The notes under the pieces: generated by a model
What the model saw: the letters and a program-made list of their open reading frames with translations, nothing else
Databases searched by the model: none
Told to the model about the DNA's origin: nothing
Made by a program: the position numbers and the translations under genes
Part shown: positions 48,810 through 57,224 of the stretch, piece by piece
Layout: every line of letters starts with the position of its first letter
Numbering within the stretch: position 1 is the first letter of the stretch
Assembly (NCBI GenBank): GCA_002778785.1
Contig: PEZS01000006.1
Coordinates: 202,537-266,536 of the forward strand
From: Bdellovibrionales bacterium CG10_big_fil_rev_8_21_14_0_10_45_34
Lineage (GTDB): Bacteria; Bdellovibrionota; Bdellovibrionia; Bdellovibrionales; 1-14-0-10-45-34
Direction: 5' to 3'
Length of the DNA stretch: 64,000 nt

Positions 48810-49664
48810 TTATAGAGTTGAGGCGAGGTCAGCAGGGCTGCGAGCAATTTTGCAGCCGGCTGAAGCTAGCGCTTCAAACTTCGCTTCAGCAGTGCCTTTG
48901 CCGCCACTAATGATCGCGCCAGCATGGCCCATGCGTTTACCTTTAGGAGCGGTAGCACCAGCAATAAACGCAACCACAGGTTTTTTAAATTCACGCCTGA
49001 TATACTCGGCAGCTTCCTCTTCTGCGGTGCCGCCAATTTCGCCAATCATAATTACGGCTTCGGTATTTGCATCGCGATTATATAGCTCCAGCACATCAAT
49101 GAAGTTTGTGCCATTGACGGGATCGCCACCAATGCCTACGCAGGTACTCTGTCCCATACCTCTATTTGTCAGCTGCCAAACAGCTTCGTAGGTGAGTGTA
49201 CCTGATCGTGATAGAACACCTACCTTACCAGGTTTGTGGATGTGCCCTGGCATAATACCAATTTTGCACTCACCGGGAGTAATGACTCCCGGGCAATTTG
49301 GCCCTACAAGACGCGTCTTCTTGCCGTTCATTGCTCTTCGAACTTTCACCATGTCCATAACAGGAATGCCTTCGGTAATGCACACTACGAGGTCTAATTC
49401 AGCGTCAACAGCTTCTAAAATAGCATCGGCAGCAAAAGGAGGCGGAACATAAACAACAGAAGCCGTACATCCTGTTTTCTCGCGAGCCTCTAAAACTGTG
49501 TCGAACACAGGTAGATTCAAGTGTTTTGTGCCGCCTTTACCTGGCGTAACACCGCCGACCATTTTTGTGCCATAAGCGATAGCTTGTTCAGAATGAAATG
49601 TTCCTTGAGCTCCAGTGAACCCTTGGCAAATCACTTTTGTATCTTTGTTCACAATGATCGACAT
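48810..49664 (-). CDS. sucD: Succinyl-CoA ligase (ADP-forming) alpha subunit
   Basis: The 284-residue subunit has the CoA-binding N-terminal domain ([20 protein letters not shown]), the phospho-histidine region GHAGAI with the active His ([16 protein letters not shown]), and [16 protein letters not shown]. With SucC it converts succinyl-CoA to succinate with substrate-level phosphorylation. It overlaps the sucC stop by one base. Confidence 0.97.
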
Positions 49665-50830
49665 TAAACACCTCTCGCTGCTGCAACCACTTTTTTCGCG
49701 GCGTCAGTTAAACCATCTGCTGGCGTGATATTGAGTCCGCTTTTAGCTAAAATTTCTTTTCCCTTTTCGACATTAGTTCCTTCAAGGCGCACCACCAAAG
49801 GTACCTTGAGACCAATTTCTTTAGATGCAGCGATCACACCCTCCGCAATAATGTCACACTTCATGATCCCGCCAAAGATATTGACCAAAATCGCCTTCAC
49901 ATTGGGATCTTTTAAAATGATCGAAAACGCCGCGGTAACCTTTTCTTTGTTGGCCCCTCCGCCCACATCCAAAAAGTTAGCAGGCTCGCCTCCGTGAAGC
50001 TTAATAATATCCATGGTGGCCATAGCAAGACCGGCTCCGTTGACGAGGCATCCAATTTGTCCATCAAGTTTGATGAAGGCCAAATCATATTTTGAAGCTT
50101 CAATCTCGGCGGGATCTTCCTCAGTGAGATCGCGCATTTCAAGGATGTCAGAGTGCCTAAAGAGCGCATTTGAATCGAAGTTCATTTTCGCATCAAGAGC
50201 AATAAGATCGCCTTCTTTTGTCAGAACCAAAGGATTGATTTCTGCTATGGAGCAGTCTTTCTCGACAAACGCATTGTAGAGGCCCGAAAAAAACTTAACT
50301 GCTTTTGACACAAGTGTCGCCGGGATACCAAGCGCAAATGCAAGTTGACGTCCTTGATAAGGCATAAAGCCAGCAGCCGGATCAACCACAACTTTAAAAA
50401 TCTTTTCGGGGTTTTTAGCAGCCACTTCCTCTATTTCTACTCCGCCTTCGCGGCTAGCCATAAGGATCACGCGCTGAGTTTGGCGGTCTAACACAGCCGC
50501 AACATAAAATTCTTTTTCGATATTGCAGGCTGCTTCAATATAAACTTGATTGACTGCCTTTCCTTCTGGACCTGTTTGATGAGTGATCAAATTCATACCG
50601 ATCATCTTGCCAGCAAGTTCTTCGACCTCTTTTACGGATTTAGCAATCTTAACTCCGCCGCCCTTGCCGCGCCCGCCAGCATGTATCTGAGCTTTAACCA
50701 CCCAAATATTGCCGCCAATTTTTTCAGCAGCAGCTGCCGCTTCTTTGCCTGTTTTTGCGAGTTGCCCACTAAGGGTGGCAACTCCATACTTTCTCAACAC
50801 TTCTTTGGCCTGATACTCATGAATGTTCAC
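49664..50830 (-). CDS. sucC: Succinyl-CoA ligase (ADP-forming) beta subunit
   Basis: The GTG start at 50830 (AAGGTG upstream) gives the family N-terminus [16 protein letters not shown] and 388 residues, the usual length; an ATG 18 bases up is possible. ATP-grasp motifs are present: [39 protein letters not shown] and [22 protein letters not shown]. It is the nucleotide-binding subunit. Confidence 0.97.
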
Positions 50831-50922
50831 GTGCTGCACCTTTCTCATCAGGAGAGGCAGTTATCTAAACTATCTCAAGTTAATTGAACAAAAGATTTAA
50901 AATCTGGTGCCAATGTCTCTTA

Positions 50923-51861
50923 TTACATCATTCCCTTAACGGCATTCACAAGTTCTCTCACCGCATTTACGGAGTTTTCTAGTCCAGCTTTTTCTGTTTC
51001 GTTAAGTTTGATCTCGATGACTTTTTCTAAGCCATTGCCGCCCAACTTGCAGGGAACTCCCACAAAAAGACCTTTTACTCCATACTCACCGTCTAGTTCG
51101 GCAGCACAAGGGAGAATCCTCTGTTGATCCTTTAATATTGCTTCTGCCATTTGCACGGCGCTTGCCGCAGGAGAGTAAAAAGCTGAGCCGGTTTTCAGTA
51201 GTCCAACAATTTCTGCGCCACCCTTACGCGTGCGATCAACAAGTGCTTCTATGCGATCAGCACTCATCATTTCTTGAAGGGGCACTCCTCCTATGGAGCA
51301 ATGTCGTGGCATTGGAACCATCGTGTCGCCGTGGCCACCCAAGACGAAAGCCTGAATATCTTCTACGCTGACGTTCAATTCTTGAGAAATGAATGTGCGA
51401 AATCTGGCGCTATCAAGTACGCCAGCCATACCAATGACCCGGTTACGCGGAAAGCCGAGAGTTTCTTTGGCGACATAGGCCATGGCATCGAGGGGATTAC
51501 TAACGACGATGACTACAGAATTAGGGGCATATTGCCGGATCCCTTGGCAAACCTCTTTCATAATTTTAGCGTTCGTGGCCAACAAATCGTCTCGGCTCAT
51601 TCCGGGCTTGCGGGGTATTCCCGCAGTTATAATCACTATGTCAGAGTCTTTTGTGTCAGCATAGTCGCTCGTACCAATGACATTAACAGGGAAGTTTTCA
51701 ACCGGCGATGCTTGAAGCAAATCGAGGGCCTTGCCTTTGGCAGTGCCTTCATTTACGTCAAGAAGTACAACGTCCCCAAGCTCTTTAGCGGCGGCCCAAT
51801 GGGCACAAGTGGATCCAACAAATCCGGCACCAATAACCGATATTTTTTTACGTTTATGCAT
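50923..51861 (-). CDS. mdh: Malate dehydrogenase (LDH-like type)
   Basis: The start at 51861 has GAGGTG upstream. The 312-residue NAD-dependent enzyme has the Rossmann motif [30 protein letters not shown] with Arg residues of the substrate loop, [12 protein letters not shown], and the catalytic His in [11 protein letters not shown]. The RKPGMSR loop marks malate rather than lactate specificity. It completes a TCA-cycle gene group with icd, sucC and sucD. Confidence 0.96.
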
Positions 51862-51917
51862 TTTTATCACCTCATCCTGTATTAAATTTCATTGGGCCAA
51901 TTAGAGTCGCTTTTTTC

Positions 51918-53156
51918 TTACATGTTCTTAATTATTTCATCTCCAAATTCGGAGCATTTCAAAAGTGTAGCGCCTTCCATTTGTCTGTGGAAATCATAAG
52001 TCACTCTTTTACTTTGAATGGCTTTTGCTAGACCTTCTTCGACTTTCGTTGAGGCTTCTGACCAACCCATATACTCAAGCATCATGGCTCCAGAAAGAAT
52101 CACTGATCCTGGATTAACCTTATCTTGCCCCGCATATTTAGGAGCGGTGCCATGTGTTGCTTCAAACACGGCGAATCCATCGCCGACGTTCCCGCCTGGC
52201 GCAATGCCGAGGCCTCCAACTTGAGCGGCCAGGGCATCGCTTATGTAGTCGCCATTAAGATTAGGCGTCGCTAAAACAGAATACTCTTCTGGTCGCAAGA
52301 GAGCCTGCTGAAACATGTTGTCAGCAATGCGATCTTTGATAACGACTTTTCCGTCCGTCGAGGCTCCGCTCCAAGTTTCTTCTTCAGTGACGATTCTGTC
52401 TCTGAAGTTCTTCTTAGCAATATTGTAGCCCCAATCCCGAAAAGCTCCTTCAGTGAATTTCATGATATTGCCTTTATGAACCAGCGTCACACTAGGTAAC
52501 TTGTTTTCAAGAGCATATTCGATAGCCTTAACGACAAGACGTTCGCTACCGAACTGACTCATAGGCTTGATACCAATCGCAGAATGAGGGCGTATTTTCT
52601 TACCCCACTTTGCAATCGTTTCGATAAGCTCATTGGCTTCTTTCGAATCTGCTTGCCACTCAATGCCGGCATAAACGTCTTCGGTGTTTTCTCTAAAAAT
52701 AGTCATGTTGACTTTGTTGGGCTCTTTTACCGGAGCTGGTACACCCTGATACCACTTCACTGGCCTGATGCAGGCGAAAAGATCGAGCTCTTTTCTGAGT
52801 GCCACATTGATTGAGCGAATTCCTTTTCCAACAGGAGTGCCGAGCGGGCCCTTAAGGCACACAACAAATTCCTTGATTGCCGTAAGAGTTTCTTCTGGCA
52901 AATATTCGCCGCCGTAGGTGCTGACGGCCTTCTCTCCGGCGTAAACTTCACACCAATGGATTTTCTTTTTGCCTCCGTAGGCTTTCTCTACGGCTTTATC
53001 TAAAACTTTTTGAGAGGCTGCCCATATATCCGGCCCGGTTCCATCACCTTCGATAAATGTAACAATTGGTTGATCAGGAACTTCGATCTTTCCATTTGTT
53101 GTGATTTTGATTTTAGAGCCGGCAGACGGTACTTTGACTTTGTTGTAATTTCCCAT
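51918..53156 (-). CDS. icd: NADP-type isocitrate dehydrogenase
   Basis: The ATG at 53156 follows GAGAGGAAA at good spacing; the frame is open upstream. The 412-residue enzyme resembles the E. coli type: [32 protein letters not shown] region (seen as [12 protein letters not shown]), [55 protein letters not shown] and [24 protein letters not shown] includes the Ser-equivalent regulatory loop region nearby. It oxidises isocitrate to 2-oxoglutarate. Confidence 0.96.
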
Positions 53157-53283
53157 AGATTTCCTCTCAAATTTTGATTTTCTAAGAATAGCCATTGTTT
53201 CTAAGATGTTAACGTAGAACAATCAAATTAATCATGGAGCCATACTCTCGAAGTATTGCTTCGCATTAGGACAAAAACTGCGA

Positions 53284-54042
53284 ATGATAGAAGCAAAAAA
53301 TCTGTCGATACTGTTTGGCCGAAAGGTGATCTTCGAGAATCTGAATCTTTCTATTGAAAAAGGAGAGAGATTCACATTGATCGGGCCAAGTGGAGCCGGT
53401 AAGTCCGTCCTGTTGAAGTCTCTATGTGGAGTGCTCAAGCCTGCGAGCGGCACAGTAACTGTAGACGGAATCTCTATTTATGAGGCTTCCGATGCAGAGC
53501 GAAATAAAATATTAAGAAAGATAGGGGTTTTGTTTCAGAAAAATGCATTGTTTGATTCACTGACTGCCATTGAAAATGTTTGCTTCCCCTTAAGAGAAGT
53601 TACCACGTTGCAAAAACAAAACATTAGCGAGATTGGTTCAAATTTTTTAGAAGCCGTGGGTTTGGCAGAGGCCGCGCCACTGATGCCAAGTGAAATGAGC
53701 GGTGGAATGCAAAAGCGATTGGGCATCGCCCGCGCTTTGGCGTTGCGGCCCCAGATTATTTTCTATGACGACCCGACTGCGGGGCTCGACCCGATTACTA
53801 GTAAAAAGATCATCGACTTGATTCTGGGCTTACAAAAAAAAGATTCCTCAACAGTACTGGCAATTACAAATGACATGAACCGGGCATTTCAAATGAATGG
53901 ACGTATCGCCATGTTGGTAGATGGCGAGCTCATCGTTTCAGGAGGACAAAAAGACATACTCGATTCGCAGGATCCGAGGGTCTATCAGTTTGTAAGGGGG
54001 CTTCGCGATGGCCCGCTTTCTGTGAGGAGCGCGGTTGTATGA
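53284..54042 (+). CDS. Mla-type ABC transporter ATPase with a degenerate catalytic site
   Basis: The 252-residue ATPase has Walker A GPSGAGKSV (about 39-47), Q-loop LFQKNALFDSLT, and an intact signature MSGGMQKR. Its Walker B reads IIFYDDPTAGLD, with Asp in place of the catalytic Glu, and its H-loop reads AITNDM, with Asn in place of His. It should bind ATP but hydrolyse poorly. The next gene encodes a second ATPase with the complementary pattern. It overlaps that gene by ATGA. Confidence 0.92.
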   Translation: MIEAKNLSILFGRKVIFENLNLSIEKGERFTLIGPSGAGKSVLLKSLCGVLKPASGTVTVDGISIYEASDAERNKILRKIGVLFQKNALFDSLTAIENVCFPLREVTTLQKQNISEIGSNFLEAVGLAEAAPLMPSEMSGGMQKRLGIARALALRPQIIFYDDPTAGLDPITSKKIIDLILGLQKKDSSTVLAITNDMNRAFQMNGRIAMLVDGELIVSGGQKDILDSQDPRVYQFVRGLRDGPLSVRSAVV

Positions 54043-54794
54043 GCTCCATCGCCATTTCGTTTGAAAATGTTGTGAAAAGTTTCGGGGCAAAAACCATCTT
54101 GCGTGGAGTCAGCTTTGAAATTTCAGCGGGGGAAATTGCATTCATTTTAGGTACGTCAGGCACTGGCAAATCGGTCACTCTCAAGAACATCGTGGGATTA
54201 ATGAAGCCAGACAGTGGCAAAATCTTTATCGAAGGAAGCAACATAGCCGAATATAGTGAGGATGAACTTTTCGAAGTCAGAAAGATCTGCGGAATGGTAT
54301 TTCAGCATCCCGCTTTGTTTGATTCGCTGAGCGTCTATGAAAATGTGGCTTACGGAGTCCGGCGCCACTTTCGTGTGGACGAAGCGGAGCTAAGGTTGAG
54401 AGTCGAAAAAAGTCTAACTGCTGTCAACGTTTCGGGGCTCGACGATGAGCTTCCGGCGGCGCTTTCGTATGGAATGCAAAAACGGGTGAGCCTTGCTCGA
54501 ACTTTAGCTGTGCAGCCGCGTATCTTGCTTTTCGATGAGCCAACAACAGGGCTTGACCCCGTGACGACGAGTGCAGTGAACTACTTAATTCAGAATCTCT
54601 CAAGAGAACTTAAAACAACCTCAGTAGTTGTTAGTCACGATATGAGGTGCGCGCTCGAAATCGCTGATCGCGTGATCGTACTAGATAAAGGACAAGTCAT
54701 CGAAAACAGCTCTGTCACAGATATAAAGAAATCTCGGCATCCCCTTGTCCAAGAGTTCCTTGCAGAAATTCTCGCTGAGGAGAATATGGTTTGA
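54039..54794 (+). CDS. Mla-type ABC transporter ATPase with a degenerate signature motif
   Basis: The 251-residue ATPase has Walker A LGTSGTGKSV, a canonical Walker B ILLFDEPTTGLD and H-loop VVSHDM, but its signature is LSYGMQKR instead of LSGGMQKR. Paired with the preceding ATPase this gives one consensus and one degenerate ATP site, as in heterodimeric ABC transporters. It overlaps both neighbours by 4 bases. Confidence 0.93.
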   Translation: MSSIAISFENVVKSFGAKTILRGVSFEISAGEIAFILGTSGTGKSVTLKNIVGLMKPDSGKIFIEGSNIAEYSEDELFEVRKICGMVFQHPALFDSLSVYENVAYGVRRHFRVDEAELRLRVEKSLTAVNVSGLDDELPAALSYGMQKRVSLARTLAVQPRILLFDEPTTGLDPVTTSAVNYLIQNLSRELKTTSVVVSHDMRCALEIADRVIVLDKGQVIENSSVTDIKKSRHPLVQEFLAEILAEENMV

Positions 54795-55576
54795 GAGCCT
54801 GGGCTGGTTCAATACAACTGATTGTTGCGGATATGGGCGGCTGCATGTTGTTCTTGGGGGAGGTTTATCGCCGGTTTTACGCCTTAGCACAGCGGCGCCA
54901 CCTTGTATTTGATCAAATCTATCAAGTTACACTTCAAAGTTTGGCAACAACAGCCCTTGCAGGTTTCTTTGTTGGCGCGATTATGACGGTCCAGTTTACT
55001 CTTCAGGCAAAATCTTTTGGCGCCTTAGGATTTCTTGGAGGTCTTGCTACAAGCGCGACCTTTCGCGAGGTAGGCCCTTTGTTAATTGCTTTCATGTTAA
55101 GCGGAAAAGTGGGCGCTTATACAGCAGCCGAACTTGCAACTATGAAGGTGACCGAACAAATTGATGCCATCCGCTGCCTAGGGGCAGATCCCATCGTAGA
55201 AATTATTCTTCCCCGGTTTGTTGGCATCATCATAGCCAGTTTTTTCTTACTACTTATGGGGCTCATTATGTCAACCGTTGGTGGTACTTTGCTAGCTATC
55301 ATGTTTTCTGGGGTCAGCGTTGAGGAGTATTTGCGGCACATACCCACAATACTTAACCCGCTGTCTGTTTTGAGCGGGGTATTTAAATGTGCTGTTTTTG
55401 CGTTCACGCTCGCTGCCATCTGTACTTACAAAGGCTACACAGCCACAGGGGGCGCCCGTGGGGTTGGAAGAGCTGTAGTGAACACGGCAGTGGCGACGAT
55501 GATAGGCATTGTGTTAACTGATTGGTTGACCAGCTATATTTTGGATCAAATTTTAAAGGCATTTATTTTATCTTGA
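54791..55576 (+). CDS. MlaE-like permease 1
   Basis: The 261-residue inner-membrane protein starts at a TTG overlapping the ATPase stop (TTGA); an ATG 42 bases in is an alternative. It has the MlaE pattern: an N-terminal interfacial helix, GFFVGAIMTVQFTLQAKSFG, REVGPLLIAFMLSGKVGA, MKVTEQIDAIRCLGADP and a Gly-rich C-terminus (CTYKGYTATGGARGVGRAVV). MlaE homologues move phospholipid with an MCE protein. Confidence 0.93.
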   Translation: MRAWAGSIQLIVADMGGCMLFLGEVYRRFYALAQRRHLVFDQIYQVTLQSLATTALAGFFVGAIMTVQFTLQAKSFGALGFLGGLATSATFREVGPLLIAFMLSGKVGAYTAAELATMKVTEQIDAIRCLGADPIVEIILPRFVGIIIASFFLLLMGLIMSTVGGTLLAIMFSGVSVEEYLRHIPTILNPLSVLSGVFKCAVFAFTLAAICTYKGYTATGGARGVGRAVVNTAVATMIGIVLTDWLTSYILDQILKAFILS

Positions 55577-55589
55577 ACAGAGGTCAAGT

Positions 55590-56363
55590 GTGATTGAGGC
55601 GATAGGCCGAAATGTCATCTTTTCGTGGGAATGGTTAAAAGATTTCTTACTGCTTTGGGTGAATGCATTCGCCAATGCAATTACTCCTCCGTTTCGGAAA
55701 AAAGACATTTTAGCTCAGCTTTACTTTGTGGCGAATCAAAGCCTGCCAATAGTCGCACTTTGTGTCAGTTTTGCGGCCATAGTTACAATTATTGAAGCCT
55801 CATTTCACATGAAGCTAGTGGTGAAAGATGATTCTCTTGTACCGGGTTTTGCAGCTCTTCTTATTTTAAGAGAGCTTGGCGCGGTGCTTGCGGCGTTACT
55901 TGTTACTTCGCGCGTAGGCGCCGGGCTCGCCGCCGAAGTCGGTAGCATGAAAATAACTGAGCAAATCGATGCATTAAAGGCGTTAGGAATCGACCCAGTT
56001 CGTTTTTTGGTGGTCCCCCGACTGATTGCATCGATTTTAGGGGTGATGGTCCTTACGATTTTTTCGAACTTCGTCTGTATTCTTGGAGCCATGTTGGTGT
56101 CAATATTCTCTCTCGGCTTTACCGCGGGCGCATTTCTCTCTGCGATGAACCAATTCGTCGAGTTCAAAGATTTGCTTTTTGCTATGATTAAAGGAGCCTG
56201 CTTCGGAGCTGTGATCCCTATAGTAAGTTGTCACTATGGTTTTCGTTGTGAAGCGGGCGCAGAGGGAGTCGGACGAGCAACAACTAACAGCGTGGTTGCA
56301 AGCTCGATACTGATTATTATTTTAGATTTCATTTTAGCCTGGATTTTTTCGCACTTTTACTGA
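55590..56363 (+). CDS. MlaE-like permease 2
   Basis: The 257-residue protein starts at a GTG with AGAGGT upstream. It has the same MlaE blocks as the previous gene (LRELGAVLAALLVTSRVGA, MKITEQIDALKALGIDPVRF, YGFRCEAGAEGVGRATTNSV) but is clearly divergent. Two permeases and two ATPases in one operon suggest a heteromeric transporter. Confidence 0.92.
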   Translation: MIEAIGRNVIFSWEWLKDFLLLWVNAFANAITPPFRKKDILAQLYFVANQSLPIVALCVSFAAIVTIIEASFHMKLVVKDDSLVPGFAALLILRELGAVLAALLVTSRVGAGLAAEVGSMKITEQIDALKALGIDPVRFLVVPRLIASILGVMVLTIFSNFVCILGAMLVSIFSLGFTAGAFLSAMNQFVEFKDLLFAMIKGACFGAVIPIVSCHYGFRCEAGAEGVGRATTNSVVASSILIIILDFILAWIFSHFY

Positions 56364-56447: not shown

Positions 56448-57224
56448 ATGAAGTCTGAATACAAAGTCGGGTTGTTGTTTCTTGTCTCTGTAGGGTTGGT
56501 TATCGTATTTGCATTTGCGATCGGAGCTTTAGGTCCTTTTCGAGATTCCTACAAGTTAACCGTACTCTATAATTTTGCCGGCGGGATAGAAGAGGGCTCA
56601 CCTGTTCGCGTGATGGGCATTAAAGTCGGAAAGGTGCAGCGAATTCGCTTCGAGCCGGGCTTAATCTCCCCAAGCGGGGAAGAAGTTCAGCTCGCTATCG
56701 ATATCGCGGTCGATAAAAAAGCATGGCGCACAGTTCGTAGTGACAGCCAGTTTTTTATTAATATTGCAGGGTTAATAGGAGAGAAGTTTGTAGAAATCAC
56801 CCCTGGTCGCCAAGAAAGCCCTCAGCTCGCTGATGGGCAACTTGTCCGCGGCGAAGATCCCCCTCGCGTCGACCAGTTACTTTCTCAAGGATACGGATTA
56901 GCCGGAAAGATCCTAGAAATGGTCGAAAAGAATGAGGGCAAGTTTAGCGACACGATTTTCAAACTCAACGATCTCGTAAAGAACGTTAATAAGACTTTAG
57001 TTCTACTAGAAAAGGCCACACATAAAGTTGAAGTGAACCGCCTGCTCCAAAATATGGTGAAAATCACTGATGATGTCGCAAAAGTCAGTTCGAAAATGAG
57101 TTCAGAAGAAGCTCAAAAGACCTACGATTTTATCCATACCCTTATCTGGCGATTGGAGCCTCTTGATAAAGAGGCGATTAAGGAGTTTTTGCAGGAGGAA
57201 GGGGTTCGCGCCCGCATCTTCTAA
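56448..57224 (+). CDS. mlaD: MlaD-like MCE-domain protein
   Basis: The 258-residue protein has one membrane helix (about 5-27, VGLLFLVSVGLVIVFAFAIG) and an MCE domain (about 38-120: YNFAGGIEEGSPVRVMGIKVGKV, SQFFINIAGLIGEKFVEITPG). The C-terminal half is helical. MCE proteins form rings that carry lipids across the periplasm between the membranes. No mlaB or mlaC homologue is adjacent. An 84-base gap with no stem-loop separates it from permease 2. Confidence 0.93.
   Translation: MKSEYKVGLLFLVSVGLVIVFAFAIGALGPFRDSYKLTVLYNFAGGIEEGSPVRVMGIKVGKVQRIRFEPGLISPSGEEVQLAIDIAVDKKAWRTVRSDSQFFINIAGLIGEKFVEITPGRQESPQLADGQLVRGEDPPRVDQLLSQGYGLAGKILEMVEKNEGKFSDTIFKLNDLVKNVNKTLVLLEKATHKVEVNRLLQNMVKITDDVAKVSSKMSSEEAQKTYDFIHTLIWRLEPLDKEAIKEFLQEEGVRARIF

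Follow-up and report, generated by a model that had tools for sequence, protein, structure and literature searches.

Does an operon that carries two ATPase genes and two permease genes encode a single MCE transporter with two unequal ATP sites? This question is raised by five plus-strand genes in the window (the whole 64,000-nucleotide stretch of the Bdellovibrionales bacterium CG10_big_fil_rev_8_21_14_0_10_45_34 genome analyzed here), which form an MCE/Mla-type operon with the order A1-A2-P1-P2-D (Table 1). The D gene, encoding an MCE protein, is part of the operon and lies just beyond the interval 53284-56363 considered in the initial annotation. The two ATPases are 35% identical and their reading frames share an ATGA overlap; the best NCBIfam model for A1 was MlaF, with a score under the model cut-off. 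The two diverged permeases that had been noted in the operon both proved to be MlaE proteins, far exceeding the PF02405 cut-off and sharing 30% identity. P1 was called from a TTG start at the end of A2, and an ATG start further in is possible.

Genes of the TCA cycle (isocitrate dehydrogenase, malate dehydrogenase, and sucC) adjoin the operon divergently at window positions 49664-53222, and malate dehydrogenase and/or sucC were found beside the operon in many relatives (L054, L062, L063, L069, L071, and L075), indicating a conserved neighborhood. Several relatives also carry, just 3' of D, a gene of approximately 190-230 residues with a signal-peptide-like start, which may encode a periplasmic or outer-membrane partner; no clear comparable signal-peptide gene was found right after D in the window.

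The initial annotation had described A1 as carrying Asp-Asp in Walker B and Asn in the H-loop beside an intact signature, and A2 as carrying the signature LSYGM beside an intact Walker B and H-loop. Each of these residues was located in the reading frames (Table 1). Additionally, the Q-loop Gln is present in A1, and the Walker A motif of A2 is GTSGTGKS.

Table 1. Genes and diagnostic ATPase residues of the operon in the window, and putative partner genes in loci of relatives
Feature	Position	Strand	Description
ATPase 1 (A1)	53284..54042	+	MlaF-like ABC ATPase, 252 aa; ORF; PF00005; catalytic residues altered, signature intact
A1 Walker A	53383..53406	+	GPSGAGKS, intact
A1 signature	53695..53718	+	MSGGMQKR, SGG intact
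A1 D163	53770..53772	+	GAC; Asp where the Walker B catalytic Glu is expected; Walker B IIFYDDPTAG
A1 N196	53869..53871	+	AAT; Asn for H-loop His
ATPase 2 (A2)	54039..54794	+	MlaF-like ABC ATPase, 251 aa; ORF; PF00005, NCBIfam; catalytic residues intact, signature altered
A2 signature	54462..54485	+	LSYGMQKR
A2 Y144	54468..54470	+	TAT; replaces first Gly of SGG
A2 E167	54537..54539	+	Walker B catalytic Glu intact, FDEP
A2 H200	54636..54638	+	H-loop His intact, SHD
Permease 1 (P1)	54791..55576	+	MlaE family; PF02405, E 2.6e-57
Permease 2 (P2)	55590..56363	+	MlaE family; PF02405, E 4.6e-65
MCE protein (D)	56448..57224	+	MlaD-type, 258 aa; PF02470, E 3.6e-17; fifth gene of the conserved order
Putative partner gene downstream of D	L054 10233-10907
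Putative partner gene downstream of D	L053 562-1257
Putative partner gene downstream of D	L069 105-677
Putative partner gene downstream of D	L075 154-756

Each ATP site of an ABC dimer forms where Walker A, Walker B, and the H-loop of one subunit meet the signature of its partner (PMC7756269). With this head-to-tail geometry, one site of an A1/A2 dimer would have two or three altered motifs, and the other would be canonical. These motifs suggested that the operon very probably encodes an MCE-family ABC lipid transporter with a heterodimeric ATPase pair, in which one ATP site is degenerate and the other active. The membrane core of the predicted transporter would be heteromeric, with the A1 and A2 ATPases seated on the P1 and P2 permeases and a ring of one MCE protein; both the A1/A2 dimer and its pairing with P1/P2 are parts of the prediction, and lipid is the presumed substrate by analogy with the family. 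Site 1, in which the signature of A2 faces the Walker A, Walker B, and H-loop motifs of A1, would be degenerate, probably binding ATP with slow or no hydrolysis. Site 2, composed of the corresponding motifs of A2 and the signature of A1, would be canonical and drive the cycle, and one ATP might be hydrolyzed per cycle.

To follow the motifs beyond this genome, we searched 60 genomes of this order and 369 of its phylum and scanned named genomes, which yielded approximately 100 distinct relatives, including Bdellovibrio bacteriovorus strain kdesi. The gene order A1-A2-P1-P2-D was found in nearly all of their loci. In the 95 A1 orthologues of distinct pairs, the signature was invariably SGG, the Walker B catalytic position was occupied by Asp (76), Glu (18), or Ser (1), and the H-loop position by Asn (82), Ser (9), Thr (1), or His (3); every one of the 95 lacked at least one of the catalytic Glu and the H-loop His. 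The third signature residue of the 100 A2 orthologues was Tyr (88) or Phe (12), and all 100 retained both the catalytic Glu and the H-loop His, with the reservation that the Glu count in the named set is biased because the search pattern contained FDEPTTGL, the His and signature counts being unbiased. Accompaniment of the A2 signature change by a catalytic change in A1, the co-occurrence that the initial annotation had suggested checking, was thus observed in 95/95 pairs, drawn from many Bdellovibrionota families. The signature change extends across the phylum, and so, nearly always, does the H-loop change (His in 3/95 A1), but the replacement of Glu by Asp does not, since Glu is kept in 18/95. 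Only 1 of 77 single-ATPase MlaF homologues, counted after removal of duplicate rows of the heteromeric set, deviated, and in the signature only (LSIGM), a contrast that sets the complementary pattern apart from chance. Its carrier was the single-ATPase homologue at L127 5986-6753 from Rhodospirillaceae SAT42; the further apparent exceptions in this canonical set were duplicate rows of the heteromeric set and were discarded.

The complementary motifs in all 95 pairs uphold the proposal of two unequal sites, although the word "dead" that had been applied to one of them may be too strong, as Asp-bearing degenerate sites can still hydrolyze ATP slowly (PMC7756269). The same property lends some weight to a heterodimer in which both sites hydrolyze ATP, LSYGM and the Asp/Asn pair merely slowing site 1 as a regulatory difference. 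The signature Ser and second Gly are retained in nearly all A2, so that the impairment of site 1 may be partial, and the A1 orthologues that keep the catalytic Glu are a counterpoint to a degenerate site 1. Against two hydrolyzing sites stand the at least two deviations in site 1 of every pair and the repeated loss of Glu or His in A1 only. We consider this alternative unlikely, while giving it more weight than those below.

The distribution of the genes bears on whether A1 and A2 act together. Of the 60 genomes of the order, 44 have orthologues of A1 and A2 alike and 16 have neither, as read from search E-values and loci (A1 is cut by the contig end in G002); loss of the second ATPase alone, named beforehand as evidence that would speak against the heterodimer, was therefore seen in none of these genomes. 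In G006 and G217, A1 is unlinked from A2-P1-P2-D and lies elsewhere in the genome with its Asp-Asp and Asn residues retained. Overall, A1 does not adjoin A2 in five loci, and an A1 with Asp-Asp and Asn was located elsewhere in four of the five genomes; in the fifth (G266, 78% complete), A2 lies at a contig edge. In one relative (L077 6717-8456, genome G050), a linker of approximately 65 residues joins A2 to P1 within a single 580-residue open frame, and this fusion supports the placement of A2 and P1 in one complex.

Solo A1-like ATPase genes were found at L078, L080, L084, L091, and L092 (genomes G046, G031, G005, G054, and G017). Their Walker B has Asp-Asp and their H-loop has His, Ser, or Pro; no permease gene adjoins them, and they branch within the order's A1 clade. 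A1-type proteins may therefore also work without A2, which agrees with a reading of A1 and A2 as separate homodimers serving different permeases or functions, the sequence changes being the tuning of separate enzymes. Retention of the Walker A Lys and Q-loop Gln in both ATPases would also fit two separate enzymes. However, an A2 dimer would combine two altered signatures and an A1 dimer two altered catalytic sets, giving two impaired sites in either case, yet the motifs that would meet in trans in a heterodimer are untouched in every pair; this counts for the A1/A2 heterodimer. Together with the joint loss of the two genes, it makes separate homodimers improbable.

Myxococcota have a related operon in which the order is A1-P1-P2-A2 and an MCE gene often comes next. 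Matches of the A2 type at an E-value of 1e-75 or better occurred in 80 of 189 Myxococcota genomes; at further loci (e.g., L344 and L348), A2 adjoins an MCE gene and the other operon genes fall outside the stretch examined. Complementarity was present in all 30 complete Myxococcota pairs, through residues other than those used in Bdellovibrionota. In these pairs, the A2 signature is altered without exception (LGDG, LSDG, FGDG, IGDG, VGPS, etc.) with Glu and His intact, and the A1 signature is SGG, although this signature comparison is circular because the signature was the criterion for telling A1 from A2; the tree and the gene position agree with the sorting. The A1 of 14 pairs has a GxxAxGK Walker A and Ser for the H-loop His, and that of the other 16 has Asp for the catalytic Glu with His retained.

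In an ATPase tree from which the motif columns had been left out (branch supports here and below are SH-aLRT values obtained with a quick search), the A1 sets of Bdellovibrionota and Myxococcota formed one side of a branch with a support of 97, and the A2 sets of both phyla one side of another with a support of 90. The signature change mapped once on this tree; the Walker B and H-loop changes mapped several times, only within the A1 clade. A test of all heteromeric ATPases as one clade gave p 0.642. Among the permeases, P1 orthologues formed one side of a branch with a support of 100, and P2 orthologues likewise with 97. P1 grouped with the first Myxococcota permease (support 81), and P2 with the second (support 96); the orthology of P1 is favored rather than proven, because the AU test does not reject its alternative pairing with the second Myxococcota permease (p 0.377).

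In Bdellovibrionota, 807 of 820 locus comparisons showed faster divergence of A1 than of A2, as did all 435 in Myxococcota, with mean identities for A1 versus A2 of 0.45 versus 0.55 and 0.46 versus 0.59, respectively. Such lower conservation is expected if the catalytic site of A1 is relaxed. The faster evolution would also suit an ATPase decaying toward loss, an explanation we find scarcely credible given that Walker A, the Q-loop, and SGG are kept in essentially all A1 orthologues across the phylum and that A1 is retained even where unlinked from the operon.

The favored interpretation of these trees and motifs is that the Bdellovibrionota and Myxococcota operons share ancestry and descend from one ancient heteromeric transporter. 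A broader scenario, for and against which we see the balance as even, is that of an ancient MCE branch in which both ATPases and permeases are heteromeric and one catalytic site is degenerate. This branch would have had a single origin before the split of Bdellovibrionota and Myxococcota, or have been passed between them, and its degenerate site would later have been remodeled along several routes that differ in their chemistry; in a system that has no MlaB, MlaC, or MlaA, the asymmetric site would act as an inbuilt clamp or regulator.

The closest solved chains to the operon proteins were MlaF, MlaE, YrbE1A/B, and the Mce1 ATPase, and for the A1 family the best solved matches were MlaF chains together with the ATPase in entries 8fed-8fef (mycobacterial Mce1). 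Like E. coli MlaFEDB, the operon combines an MlaF-like ATPase, an MlaE permease, and an MlaD-type MCE protein. The E. coli complex is MlaF2E2D6B2, with two copies each of one ATPase and one permease (PMC7790496), which agrees with the homodimeric description in the initial annotation. Here, in contrast, the window and the operons of relatives contain two different ATPases and two different permeases, and the genome lacks matches to MlaA, MlaC, and STAS_2, all of them components of the E. coli system (with MlaB as the STAS_2 protein): the whole-genome search gave no match to PF04333 or PF05494 (MlaA and MlaC) and none to PF13466 (MlaB/STAS_2), with positive E. coli controls. "Mla" is a loose name in view of these undetected components, and "heteromeric MCE transporter" fits the operon better.

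Across the whole genome, there were four MCE and five MlaE matches. Three further MCE loci have one MlaE each (G000:C8:107077-108880, G000:C11:101209-102946, and G000:C13:171066-172997); two of them have a canonical MlaF-like ATPase, and the ABC ATPase of the third (L099 5410-6357) is strongly diverged. The two other MlaF-like genes of this genome (L097 and L098) belong to the 77 single-ATPase homologues described above.

The three altered positions correspond to LSHGH, S573, and S605 of CFTR. The motif logic is also that of known heterodimeric ABC proteins with one degenerate site, as the initial annotation had recognized: in TAP, TM287/288, CFTR, and ABCG5/G8, one ATPase domain has an altered signature, and in the other the Walker B Glu and/or the H-loop His (or Walker A) is changed, all within the same composite site, CFTR having Ser for the catalytic Glu (PMC7756269). 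Those proteins are for the most part exporters, or a channel, whose transmembrane folds differ from the MCE-linked MlaE fold of the operon. In human degenerate sites, the signature is changed in all, replacement of Glu by Asp ranks second in frequency, Walker B changes often accompany H-loop changes, and ABCG5/G8 uses Walker A instead (PMC7756269). The Bdellovibrionota type follows this pattern of signature and Walker B/H-loop changes, and one Myxococcota type touches Walker A too. Mycobacterial Mce1 (YrbE1A/YrbE1B, MceG, and Mce1A-F) is an MCE transporter with a heterodimeric permease, as predicted for the operon, combined with an MceG homodimer (PMC9882608); unlike Mce1, the operon also has two different ATPase genes, and it has a single MCE gene in place of Mce1A-F.

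Among open-licence papers, none was found that describes a heterodimeric MlaF/MCE ATPase, or Mla in Bdellovibrio or Myxococcus, and a phylogeny-minded Mla paper mentions neither Bdellovibrionota nor Myxococcota (PMC10665443). The operon would thus extend the design with one degenerate site to a transporter fold for which this literature yielded no report of it. The separate roles of the ATP sites are hard to take apart in MlaFEDB and Mce1 because two copies of one ATPase make the sites identical. A naturally asymmetric MCE transporter, in Bdellovibrio bacteriovorus and many Myxococcota, would allow single-site mutants to be made by changing one gene, and would bear on how ATP is coupled to lipid movement and on the disputed direction of that movement.
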